Shown: piece after piece, positions 10,204 through 41,464 of the stretch
Layout: every line of letters starts with the position of its first letter
How positions within the stretch are numbered: the first letter of the stretch is position 1
Assembly (NCBI GenBank): GCA_946536925.1
Contig: CAMNFC010000005.1
Location: forward strand, 1 to 42,419
DNA length: 42,419 nt
Reading direction: 5' to 3'
DNA from: an uncultured Selenomonadales bacterium
Lineage (GTDB): Bacteria > Bacillota > Negativicutes > Selenomonadales > Selenomonadaceae
Translations under genes and position numbers: made by a program
Notes under the pieces: generated by a model
The model's database searches: none
The model's input: only the letters and a program-made list of their open reading frames with translations
What the model was told of the DNA's origin: nothing

Positions 10204-11756
10204 CGCTCGTCTTCCAAAATTTTTTTGAAGGCCGATTGAATTTCGCGAAGATAATTTTCCGAATCCATGAGCGGTGATTTTTTCATCATCGCCCGCAAAT
10301 TTTTTCTCAAGATCGTCAGCAGCTCCCAATCGCCCGCCAACATGACCGCGCGTCTGATGTATTCGTCCAAAGAATCGACAGCAAGTTCATCAAGCCCGAC
10401 CTTCTTCAAAATGCTCAAGCCGAATCGCGAGCCGTGACGCTTTCCGTAAAGACTGACAACGGGCACGCCCATATACAAAGCCTCGCAAGTGGTGACGCCG
10501 CCGGTGTAGGGGAAAGTGTCCAGCGCGATATCAACGTCGGCGTATTCGGCCAGCGGGCTGCGTGCTGAAAACGGGCGCATCTCCACGCGCGAAAGATCGA
10601 AGCCAAAACTTTTCAACCGCTCGCCGACAAAATTTTTTTCGTCCGTCGTGTTGAAAATTTTGTGCTTGAGGATCAAACGACTTTGGGGCGCGGCGTCCAA
10701 AATTTTTTTCCACGCGGCCAAAATCGAATCGGTCACCTTCGCGAAATTGTTAAAGCTGCCGAAGGTGATGAAATTATTTTTCACGCACGGAGGATTTTTT
10801 GCCGGCTCAAGTTTTGTCGGCGGCTCGTAGCAAATGTGGCTGTGAGGGAGCTTGAGAACTTTCTCGACAAAAAAAGTTTCGTCGCCTGCGCAAGTTTCGT
10901 CGGACAAAAAATAATCGAAGCACTTCAAGCCGGTCGAACCCATGTAGCCAATCCCCGACATTTGCACGGAAGCGGGACGATACGCCGCGACGCGCAGGCG
11001 GTTTCCGTCGGTGTGGCCGTCCAGGTCGAAGAGAATGTCGATTTCGTCCTCGCGAATAATTTTTGCCGCAGCCTCGTCCGTCAAATTAAAAATGTCGCGC
11101 CAAACGTCGGCCGTCGCGCGAAAAAATTCCGTGACGTCGTCGGGATTTTTCACGGCGGAATAAAAATAAGTCTCGAAAAAATTTTTGTCGAGGTCGCGCA
11201 AAAGTTTCCAGCTCCAAGCCATCACGACGCTCCAATGAAAATTTGCTGACATAAATCCCACGCGAATTTTTTTGTGATTATAAAATTTTTTCGGGAAAGG
11301 TTTGACGTCCGCCAAAAATTTTTCGTACTCGTCATAAAGTTTTTGGAAATCTTCGGCGGAAAAATTTTCTATGGCGTTGGCGGAAAAAATCGCGTTGCTG
11401 ATCTCCTCGCAAGATTTTTTGTTGTCGTCGGAAAAATTTGCCGACAAACAAAAAGCGCGCACCGAATCCGCAGTGCGCCCCAAAAATCTCGCGGCCGAGC
11501 CCAAGCAATTGAACGTGTCCGCCGCCAAATTTTTTTCGTCCGCCGAAGCCAAATCGATTCGCGGCAAAAATTTTTCCAGCAAAGAAAATTCTTTGAGCGA
11601 TTCGCCTTTGTCGCGACGGATGAAAATTTCCAGCAAGAAACTTTTTTTCCAGTGCGGCGCGGCGTCTTCAACCTGCTTGACGATTTCCAATGCCGCGTCG
11701 AATTTTTTTTCACGATAAAGTTTCAGAGCCGCTTCGTATCGTTCCAGGATGTCCAT
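10191..11756 (-). CDS. TPR-containing GT41 (OGT-like) glycosyltransferase, copy C
   Basis: 521 aa, a third paralogue on the opposite strand. The N-terminus (EAALKLYREKKFDAALEIVK) is TPR-like and diverged from copies A and B. The GT41 domain has KIRVGFMSANFHWS, where copies A and B read SADF followed by a His three residues later; here this is SANF and the His is replaced by Ser. It continues with DILFDLDGHTDGNRL, FITFGSFNNFAKVT and DTFPYTGGVTTCEALYMGVP. In OGT relatives the DF-x2-H block contributes a conserved His, so activity may be altered. The gene follows the ChW gene by 6 bases with a weak ribosome site, suggesting coupling. Bases 10432-10782 are identical to copy A. Confidence 0.87.
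   Translation of the reverse strand: MDILERYEAALKLYREKKFDAALEIVKQVEDAAPHWKKSFLLEIFIRRDKGESLKEFSLLEKFLPRIDLASADEKNLAADTFNCLGSAARFLGRTADSVRAFCLSANFSDDNKKSCEEISNAIFSANAIENFSAEDFQKLYDEYEKFLADVKPFPKKFYNHKKIRVGFMSANFHWSVVMAWSWKLLRDLDKNFFETYFYSAVKNPDDVTEFFRATADVWRDIFNLTDEAAAKIIREDEIDILFDLDGHTDGNRLRVAAYRPASVQMSGIGYMGSTGLKCFDYFLSDETCAGDETFFVEKVLKLPHSHICYEPPTKLEPAKNPPCVKNNFITFGSFNNFAKVTDSILAAWKKILDAAPQSRLILKHKIFNTTDEKNFVGERLKSFGFDLSRVEMRPFSARSPLAEYADVDIALDTFPYTGGVTTCEALYMGVPVVSLYGKRHGSRFGLSILKKVGLDELAVDSLDEYIRRAVMLAGDWELLTILRKNLRAMMKKSPLMDSENYLREIQSAFKKILEDERQKS
10432..10782 (-). repeat. 351-bp inverted copy of 6479-6829
   Basis: This is the partner of the identical segment in GT41 copy A. The pair forms an inverted repeat enclosing about 3.6 kb (end of copy A, copy B, the secreted-protein and outer-membrane genes, end of copy C). 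It can support gene conversion or inversion by homologous recombination. Confidence 0.85.
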
Positions 11757-11762
11757 AAATTT

Positions 11763-12398
11763 TTACCGGCGATAATCTCTGTGATAGTTGCCGTCGCTGT
11801 CATAGTAGCCGTTGTCGCCGTTGTCATATCTGCTGCGTTTGTGGCGTCTGTAATCTCTGTGATAGTTGCCGTCGCTGTCATAGTAGCCGTTGTCGCCGTC
11901 ATCGTATCTGTCGCGTCTGTAGCCGTAATCGGAGCCTTTCTCGACGAGTTCAATTTGAATTGCTTCTATTCTCAAATGTTGGCCTTCGGTGCCGGCGACA
12001 GCTCCGTTTTTGACCCAATTTTGCCAGCCGATGTTTTGGACGTGCACGCGATAACAGACGTCATATCTGCTGGCCATGGAGCCCGTCAAACGAATTCGAA
12101 TTGCTTCCATGCGCAGACCTTCGCCGACGGTTCCGGCCACGTCGCCCGAATATCTCCAGCCTTGCCAGCCAATATTTTTAATCCGCGCGTTGTATTCGAT
12201 GCCGTCGCAATTTATGATCAACGCTTCGAGCCGAAGATCTCGGTGAGTGGTGCCCGCGGTTTGTCCGGAGCTTACGGGACGCATCCAACCTTTGTCTTGG
12301 ACGTGCGCCTGATAAGTCAGATACGTTGAGGCGGAAACGTTTTGCGTGACGAAAATCATCGCCAACAAAATCATCACGCCGAAAAATTTTTTCATCAT
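11763..12398 (-). CDS. Secreted ChW-repeat protein with a duplicated Tyr/Asp/Arg tail
   Basis: 211 aa. A signal peptide ([21 protein letters not shown]) is followed by three ChW (clostridial hydrophobic W) repeats of about 45 aa with cores [24 protein letters not shown] and [16 protein letters not shown], each ending in LR-x-EA. ChW domains occur on secreted proteins of Clostridium and relatives, often with adhesion or glycan-related partners. The C-terminal ~55 residues contain two copies of a segment starting RYD(D/N)[10 protein letters not shown], rich in Tyr, Asp, Gly and Arg and probably disordered. AAAGGAG precedes the ATG, which overlaps the smpB stop. GT41 copy C lies directly downstream. 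No enzymatic domain is seen. Confidence 0.85.
11773..11899 (-). repeat. Two 49-bp direct repeats in the ChW gene tail
   Basis: Bases 11773-11821 and 11851-11899 are identical over 49 bases, with a period of 78 bases (26 codons). They encode the duplicated [19 protein letters not shown] segment. Identity at silent sites indicates a recent tandem duplication. Confidence 0.9.
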
Positions 12399-41022: not shown

Positions 41023-41051
41023 TTGACAAAAAATTTTTCATGTGATAAGTT
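41023..41051 (+). promoter_or_regulatory. Promoter for the plus-strand small RNA
   Basis: TTGACA (41023-41028), 17 bases, then TAAGTT (41046-41051) preceded by TGA, an extended -10 element. The -10 hexamer matches only the key T1, A2 and T6 positions. Transcription would begin near 41058. Confidence 0.55.
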
Positions 41052-41057
41052 TTTCGA

Positions 41058-41160
41058 GACGTTAAAACACAATCCACGATGAACGCTCAGCATCGTGCTC
41101 ACAAACCACAAACGAAAAACCCCCGCGCAGCTTAGCGAACTGCACGGGGGCTTCGTTTTG
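41058..41160 (+). ncRNA. Candidate antisense (antitoxin-like) small RNA
   Basis: A predicted RNA of about 100 bases from the promoter at 41023 to the terminator ending at 41158. Its 5' half contains a perfect 7-bp stem CACGATG / CATCGTG (41075-41081, 41091-41097) with the 9-base loop AACGCTCAG. The loop and the next three bases, AACGCTCAGCAT (41082-41093), recur at 41301-41312, where they are the complement of the start codon and next three codons of the minus-strand mini-ORF. CTCAC shortly after can pair with part of the Shine-Dalgarno. The RNA has no reading frame of note. It resembles RNA II of par/fst loci in layout. Confidence 0.5.
41110..41158. terminator. Bidirectional terminator hairpin shared by two convergent transcripts
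   Basis: CCCCCG-C-GCAG (41120-41130) pairs with CTGC-A-CGGGGG (41140-41150), with outer AAACGAA (41110-41116) against TTCGTTT (41152-41158). On the minus strand the inner stem is followed by TTTTTCGTTT, a strong terminator for the small ORF; on the plus strand by CTTCGTTTT. Confidence 0.85.
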
Positions 41161-41169
41161 CCTAACCAG

Positions 41170-41331
41170 TTAGCGAGGCCGATTAACGTAGGGCATCAAG
41201 TTGTCAACGTCTGCTAACTTTTTAAAGAAGCGGTCGTAGATGCAGAGTCCGATTACGGTTCCGACGGCGGTGGAAACCACACCCACGCCCAACAACGTTA
41301 AACGCTCAGCATGCCGCTCACCTCCTCTCAA
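41170..41331 (-). CDS. Candidate small hydrophobic protein, type I toxin-like (start uncertain)
   Basis: An open frame ending at TAA 41170-41172 encodes LLGVGVVSTAVGTVIGLCIY as one membrane segment, then DRFFKKLADVDNL and a basic end. From TTG 41331 it would be 53 aa, from TTG 41295 or 41292 only 41 or 40 aa. None of these starts has its own ribosome site. A strong site, AGGAGGTGAG (41317-41326), instead serves ATG 41312 in another frame, giving the four-residue peptide MLSV, whose TAA (41298-41300) lies 2 bases before the TTG at 41295. Reinitiation, as in leader-coupled toxins, is possible. Promoter upstream and terminator downstream are good. I do not recognise a family. Confidence 0.45.
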   Translation of the reverse strand: MRGGERHAERLTLLGVGVVSTAVGTVIGLCIYDRFFKKLADVDNLMPYVNRPR

Positions 41332-41372
41332 GTCGGATTAATGCAGCACAAGAGAGGTGTAGCATTGGCAAA

Positions 41373-41401
41373 AATATATCATCAGTTCAAAATTTTATCA
41401 A
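41373..41401 (-). promoter_or_regulatory. Sigma-70-type promoter for the small hydrophobic ORF
   Basis: On the minus strand TTGATA (41396-41401), 17 bases, then TATATT (41373-41378). Transcription would start near 41366, giving a leader of about 54 bases before the AUG at 41312 and an RNA of about 250 bases to the shared terminator. Confidence 0.75.
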
Positions 41402-41436
41402 CGACAAATCGGAGGAAAAAATTTTTCGCCGCCGCA

Positions 41437-41464
41437 TTGACAGAAAGCCGCCGCTTGATATAAT
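41437..41464 (+). promoter_or_regulatory. Sigma-70-type promoter for the deacetylase-like gene
   Basis: TTGACA (41437-41442), 16 bases, TATAAT (41459-41464): both hexamers are consensus. It is divergent from the promoter at 41373-41401. Confidence 0.85.

Follow-up and report, generated by a model that had tools for sequence, protein, structure and literature searches.

A probable degenerate member of a Selenomonadaceae type I toxin-antitoxin family resembling par/Fst, with two co-varying complementarities between the toxin and antitoxin RNAs

The closest point of comparison for the locus described here is par(pAD1)/Fst of Enterococcus faecalis. In the sections of PMC7472228 used here, par has convergent promoters, a bidirectional terminator, and direct repeats over the start, and the loop contact is placed at complementary terminator loops. 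Chromosomal homologues of par have poorly conserved repeats, which are thought to keep paralogues apart. (Fst/Ldr toxins have a tryptophan between the membrane helix and the charged tail; the same sections note that Fst of pAD1 itself is without it.) The regulation of ldr/rdl of Escherichia coli is described there as more like that of hok/sok. In the available part of PMC6563280, the C. difficile modules CD2517.1-RCd8, CD2907.1-RCd9, and CD0956.2-RCd10 have convergent RNAs with a long overlapping complementary region and encode small proteins with predicted membrane spans. The sections of PMC7472228 used here do not name the Selenomonadaceae, and in the titles and abstract openings of the open literature (which leaves most subscription papers outside), we found no paper on such a system in Negativicutes, Selenomonas, Selenomonadaceae, or Quinella.

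The window studied here is the whole analyzed stretch of 42,419 nucleotides from an uncultured member of the Selenomonadaceae, and two convergent genes lie near its end. Judging from sequence comparisons, this locus is very probably a degenerate copy of a Selenomonadaceae type I toxin-antitoxin family that would work like par/Fst, with bipartite RNA recognition. Like par/Fst as described in those sections of PMC7472228, the family has convergent RNAs with a common bidirectional terminator, repeats that could pair over the toxin start, a predicted membrane peptide of about 30 residues, and a U-turn-type loop motif that is enriched on the toxin RNA. Unlike par/Fst, it has a separate hairpin in the toxin 3'-UTR which repeats the terminator-loop sequence; also, its scanned toxins fall under the Fst/Ldr cut-offs, sequestration of the ribosome site is weakly supported, and there are tandem antitoxin-only units. 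The convergent RNAs and the small proteins with predicted membrane spans also recall the C. difficile modules, and some family toxins have a weak sub-threshold likeness to them (NF047374). In contrast to the long overlap described in the available part of PMC6563280, the RNAs here overlap at about the terminator and share two short separate repeats. With ldr/rdl, the family has in common the type of toxin (the toxin of G528, a genome from outside the class, is a weak sub-threshold profile match), and it differs from ldr/rdl in the regulation given for that system in PMC7472228.

In the window, the antitoxin RNA would be transcribed from the plus strand. Its promoter (41023-41051; TTGACA and an extended -10, TGTGATAAGTT) was read from the sequence, and the RNA of about 100 nt is predicted to run from 41058 to 41160, with inferred ends. 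On the minus strand, the first-pass annotation of this DNA had proposed a promoter of the form TTGATA-N17-TATATT, and we find it at 41401-41373, with TG before the -10 and a score of 10/12; both convergent promoters are promoter-like sequence only. The toxin mRNA (41366-41113 on the minus strand, with inferred ends) has the Shine-Dalgarno sequence GGAGG at 41325-41321, and its predicted fold has a z score of -2.8 (1 of 200 shuffles was equally good). The two units do have one terminator in common, as had been proposed: it forms 17 pairs at 41113-41155 in the predicted folds of both RNAs.

The annotation's direct repeat is also present. The two copies of the 12-mer lie exactly where stated, 41082-41093 and 41301-41312, with 0 such occurrences expected from 100 shuffles, and it is the core of a 27-nt repeat (81%; 41076-41102 on the plus strand and 41295-41321 on the minus strand) that also spans the edge of the ribosome site. 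On the antitoxin side, the perfect 7-bp hairpin with a 9-nt loop that had been drawn for the plus RNA is the predicted fold (41075-41097; loop AACGCTCAG at 41082-41090, complementary to the toxin start codons); including the terminator, the fold energy is -33 kcal/mol with z = -4.3, and 0 of 200 shuffles were as good. On the toxin mRNA side, the repeat covers the ribosome-site edge, the AUG, and the first codons. We call this pair of segments contact site 1. Contact site 2 is a shorter word, TTAGCGA, which lies in the terminator loop on the antitoxin side (41132-41138, plus strand) and again at 41170-41176, so that its complement is borne by the loop (41170-41178) of a hairpin in the toxin mRNA (H3; 41164-41184, minus strand). 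H3 lies directly before the terminator, in the 3'-UTR. Short-range repeats are frequent in the window (158 exact 12-mers are repeated within 300 nt; three 500-base bins account for 127 of these, and A/T runs hold many of the others), so the weight is carried by the comparative tests. (The 127 come from tandem 18-nt repeats, CCCGAAAAAATTTCACAG-like, at 1292-1542 inside the window's first long frame and from a second cluster near 11500-12000.) No known RNA family reached its gathering score in the window.

The toxin frame of the window is broken. The annotation had described a small hydrophobic ORF that opens at the AUG facing the repeat; instead, the frame of the AUG at 41312 has only four codons (MLSV) before a stop (41312-41298, minus strand), and the hydrophobic stretch (41301-41173, minus strand) is in another frame. 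This stretch matches the locus of a relative, G005, with E = 8e-10 and covers positions 5-31 of the toxin profile, and its frame extends beyond the position of the G005 stop. The listed ORF of the hydrophobic frame starts at a TTG within the Shine-Dalgarno region. We rejected this TTG as the true toxin start: parsed relatives mostly use ATG, and sometimes GTG or TTG, after GGAGGTG. Intact copies of the toxin are present in the window's own genome and in others; the window copy lacks the intact toxin reading frame of par/Fst loci. Unless the assembly is in error, the window locus is a degenerate copy of the family, whose antitoxin gene stands opposite a dead toxin gene. The idea of a par-like, RNA-regulated module with an unfamiliar toxin holds for the family, to the extent that sequence can show it, given its convergent units, common terminator, and co-varying start repeats, and fails for the window copy because of its broken frame. 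The annotation also missed the complementarity between the terminator loop and the 3'-UTR hairpin and the multi-copy, tandem character of the family.

All genome counts here include the window's own genome, an incomplete 1.87-Mb assembly in 123 contigs with 76% completeness, whose genus appears to hold Quinella sp. 1Q5. At the DNA level, the locus has matches in 16 of 60 genomes, none of them outside this genus. As the annotation had suggested, we looked for the layout in related genomes: a toxin profile matches 42 of the 66 genomes of the genus, often with several copies in each, as well as 55 of 189 genomes (8 of 30 genera) at the level of the order, and the same layout was seen in 12 loci of six other genera. 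A wider toxin profile matches 72 of 188 genomes (10 of 30 genera) in the family, some of them doubtfully, and an even draw of 398 genomes from the phylum gave 5 toxin-profile matches at E = 1e-4, 4 of them in the family (one of these, G173, is doubtful); matches with open frames of at least 116 amino acids, such as G173, are probably unrelated proteins, and the family and phylum tallies are upper figures. When a leader pattern from these loci was scanned over contigs of 84,980 species, it gave 40 stretches, and the title of every one names Selenomonadaceae, Selenomonadales, or Quinella. Outside the class, G528 has the same convergent layout and matching start segments, and by eye it has no second site. 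(In its stretch L231, the convergent layout and, about 380 nt further on, a second leader of like kind lie at 1430-1890.) These loci would add a large par-like type I toxin-antitoxin family which is unnamed in the profile libraries used. For Quinella, an uncultured rumen genus that is more abundant in some low-methane sheep according to the part of PMC9585023 used here, the family is a genetic curiosity; the words "toxin" and "antisense" are absent from the main text of the Quinella genome paper.

Stretches from the genus yielded 85 toxins and 107 antitoxin unit calls, and 72 of the toxins were paired with an antitoxin (toxins below 20 bits, 1 of 86, were left out of the paired set). Antitoxin units were sought with TTGACAA-N-TGTGATAAA, allowing mismatches, so the presence of the promoter in relatives is not independent evidence; a form of the terminator was also a search criterion, and complementarity to the start region was not. 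In the window's own genome there are five antitoxin units: those of C6 (19659-19930) and C9 (15386-15672) have intact toxins, that of C13 has a truncated toxin, that of C2 is solitary, and the fifth is the window's.

To compare partners at site 1, we aligned the 5' segments of all antitoxins with all of the toxin start regions, with duplex energies used for ranking only. Across 73 pairs (72 intact pairs and the window), the match was 15.34 to the own partner versus 6.54 to others, and the maximum from 20,000 permutations, which at both sites leave the relatedness between loci in place, was 7.81. With targets less than 75% identical, the own partner came out ahead for 29 of the 33 antitoxins and for 32 of the 33 toxins, and with targets less than 65% identical, for 20 of 23 antitoxins and 22 of 23 toxins. 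The window's own score is 14.5, versus 11 for the best other. In a first set of loci, which left out one L076 entry (an unlikely ORF) and one L064 entry (incomplete upstream sequence), the own partner ranked first in 31 of 34 cases and strictly so in 30. The matched stretch runs from -10, at the edge of the ribosome site, to about +19, so that these direct repeats give complementarity at the start of toxin translation, as in par/Fst. When 52 nearest-neighbour pairs of loci were compared, their toxin mRNAs disagreed at 268 positions. The antitoxin tracks the change on both sides at 193 of these, on one side at 69, and on neither at 6, and bases fit the other locus instead in only 46 of 536 checks. 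There are exceptions: for 4 of the 33 non-redundant antitoxins, the better fit is to a toxin of another locus, and the toxin of L142 is fitted by a second antitoxin and not by the one that shares its terminator. Among 11 loci from other genera (L124 was left out of the 12 as a near copy of L122, and terminators were set by hand), the site-1 mean of 13.77 exceeded all 20,000 permutations (maximum 11.59); the own partner was strictly ahead for only 7 of these loci. Two of the 11 are near twins, and L128 fails. The 72 matched pairs are a natural data set from which the rules of antitoxin specificity could be read directly.

Of the 73 pairs, only 29 place the longest shared word within the loop of a predicted antitoxin hairpin, so we rejected presentation in a loop as a general rule. 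A leader hairpin that hides the ribosome site looked plausible by eye, but RNAalifold found no structure in the alignment of toxin leaders, and the ribosome site was barely less accessible than in shuffles (below the shuffled mean in 48 of 83 leaders; mean probability of being unpaired 0.28 versus 0.34); we make no claim for it as a conserved switch.

The site-2 complementarity is also specific to the locus. The longest word common to the terminator loop and the H3 region was 6.56 nt within loci and 4.0 between them, with a permutation maximum of 4.76 (45 distinct loops), and the own partner was best or tied for 35 of 45. Antitoxin units without a paired toxin gave 4.52 versus 3.82, which is within the permutation range (21 distinct loops); little match is expected for these units if H3 belongs to the toxin mRNA. 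In the 11 loci from other genera, the site-2 mean of 6.64 exceeded all 20,000 permutations (maximum 6.0), and the own partner was strictly best in only 5; L128 does show site 2. The site-2 loops match even while the stems of H3 and of the terminator differ.

The stem of H3 is paired in 239 of 240 cells across 40 sequences, and its covariation exceeded that of all 500 shuffles and of all slid versions. There are 33 cells with G-U pairs on the toxin strand (these would be A-C on the opposite strand) and none with A-C, but it was this same alignment, read on the toxin strand, that had supplied the predicted structure. Fold energy does not favour a strand, as the toxin strand is the more stable in 36 of 73 H3 regions and the less stable in 37. 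The YUNR U-turn motif occurs in 39 of 73 H3 loops, compared with 18.9 expected from shuffles (the sequences are related). With reserve, we suggest that the toxin mRNA is where H3 acts and that the terminator loop of the antitoxin is its natural partner.

The 79 distinct peptides have 24-36 residues, and 74 of the 79 contain a strongly hydrophobic stretch of 15 residues; the C-terminal tail has a net positive charge, also in 74 of 79. In 47 pairs of neighbours, codons with a single change comprise 237 synonymous and 128 non-synonymous cases, a ratio of about 0.19 of expectation. As read from these codon changes, the toxins are under purifying selection.

Kinship with the Fst/Ldr toxin superfamily, as a true though diverged branch and not a look-alike, is close to an even question, and we lean slightly against it. 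Best matches below threshold do point towards the Fst, Ldr, and C. difficile toxin models: for the L127 toxin, the best is NCBIfam type_I_tox_Fst with E = 0.0019, and the G528 toxin matches Pfam Ldr_toxin with E = 0.001 and NCBIfam CD_typeI_toxin with E = 0.002. (Among the scanned peptides, none is nearer to the Ldr model or the C. difficile type I model than the G528 toxin.) A [PDST]xxxG motif, found in 64 of 79 toxins versus 27.7 in shuffles, also favours kinship; PxxxG occurs in none. Against it, no scanned toxin exceeded a curated cut-off of the Fst/Ldr profiles, with a few members below threshold at E = 0.001-0.05; for 27 scanned members there was 1 match to the Fst model and 2 to the C. 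difficile model, all sub-threshold, and none to Pfam type I toxin models. PF13955 had no match over its cut-off in the 66 genus genomes or in 14 control genomes, which leaves the reach of that search unproven, and NF033608 had none in 8 genomes and 1 in 14 controls. A search of the PDB with the A1 profile gave 0 matches. As for the tryptophan of Fst/Ldr toxins, only 36 of 79 peptides have any tryptophan. The peptides might instead be antisense-regulated small membrane proteins with an ordinary physiological role. Their toxicity is a prediction, and no addiction role for a mobile element is in sight: the leader pattern had 0 matches in viral contigs (weak evidence, as it was drawn from the window's genus), and two peptides had no match in phage and plasmid records (weak as well, for such short queries). 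This seems improbable to us, as type I toxins have just such a size, hydrophobic core, and basic tail, together with a par-like RNA layout.

Duplication is how direct repeats arise, and the matching segments could be only recent local duplications without function. The 69 of 268 differing positions at which the antitoxin follows on one side only would suit bare duplication, but the segments differ between loci and stay matched within them through 193 two-sided changes, and the site-2 loops match in spite of differing stems, likewise on average in other genera. We regard this explanation as very improbable. As for the broken frame, the window copy could be intact in the living organism and the break could be an error of a single metagenome assembly, which is incomplete and in many contigs as described above. 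The promoter, the ribosome site, both contact sites, and H3 all remain in the window copy, which is unusual for an old relic. However, the disturbance affects the start frame as well as the stop position of the family, which would take two separate faults in about 100 nt, and we consider an assembly error rather unlikely.

If the locus is, as we favour, a decayed member of a par-like toxin-antitoxin family, then the minus RNA of an intact member would encode a membrane peptide of about 24-36 residues that harms the cell membrane, and the convergent plus RNA of about 100 nt would be its antisense antitoxin. At site 1, the antitoxin 5' segment would pair with the ribosome-site edge, the AUG, and codons 2-7; at site 2, the antitoxin terminator loop would pair with the loop of the conserved 3'-UTR hairpin of the toxin mRNA. 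The loop-loop contact at the 3' hairpin and the pairing at the start codon may jointly block ribosome entry. Both contacts would give specificity, by which many copies per genome could stay separate, and the second contact would offer a concrete and testable answer to how similar antisense pairs could coexist in one cell.

Not every antitoxin unit faces a toxin. Among 106 distinct units, 84 face a toxin-like frame, 17 are followed directly by another antitoxin promoter, and 5 are solitary. (The tandem count was reduced from 20 by re-reading three by hand: at L132 19167 and 18044 there are ordinary pairs, and L150 258 duplicates another call.) In 15 of the 17, a fully parsed unit follows, and L141 68703 and L143 107907 are followed by the promoter of an incompletely parsed unit. 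L142, L189, L141, and L150 carry two or three antitoxin units arranged head to tail; every unit has a promoter, a recognition segment, and a terminator, and few toxins lie beside them. Three of the 17 tandem units match a toxin of the same incomplete genome with a score of at least 14, and six others match a toxin from another genome at that level. Tandem units might act in trans, and it is equally likely that they are decayed duplicates. A bolder and rather doubtful proposal is that Selenomonadaceae carry a self-expanding, RNA-silenced toxin family with a two-part code, in which the 5' segment reads start codons and the terminator loop reads the 3'-UTR hairpin, and that the head-to-tail antitoxin-only units of some lineages act in trans as a store of immunity to toxin copies that lie in other parts of the genome or arrive from related cells.

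The window's module lies downstream of bglA. The bglA stretch was matched in 61 genomes of the genus; we took 30 loci, of which 29 had more than 300 nt downstream, and found the module after bglA in 3 of these 29 (the window, G005, and G064). Between G005 and the window, identity is 85% across an alignment of 1423 bases, which runs through the module and stops near 41408. Given the 3 of 29 loci and this alignment, the module came or went at the bglA site within the genus. The annotation had named conserved flanks with a lost 12-base complementarity as the finding that would count against it, and the outcome favours it: at this same site, G005 (L006/L183) has an intact toxin and a matching complementarity of its own, kept though the sequence differs. 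Downstream of bglA in G064 (L203, 2222-2700) are two antitoxin units and one toxin-like frame, a different set from the window's. The homology to G005 stops just upstream of the toxin promoter, at 41408-41437, and the window's next gene beyond the module, which we take to be polysaccharide deacetylase-like, was not found beside the module in the G005 stretch.
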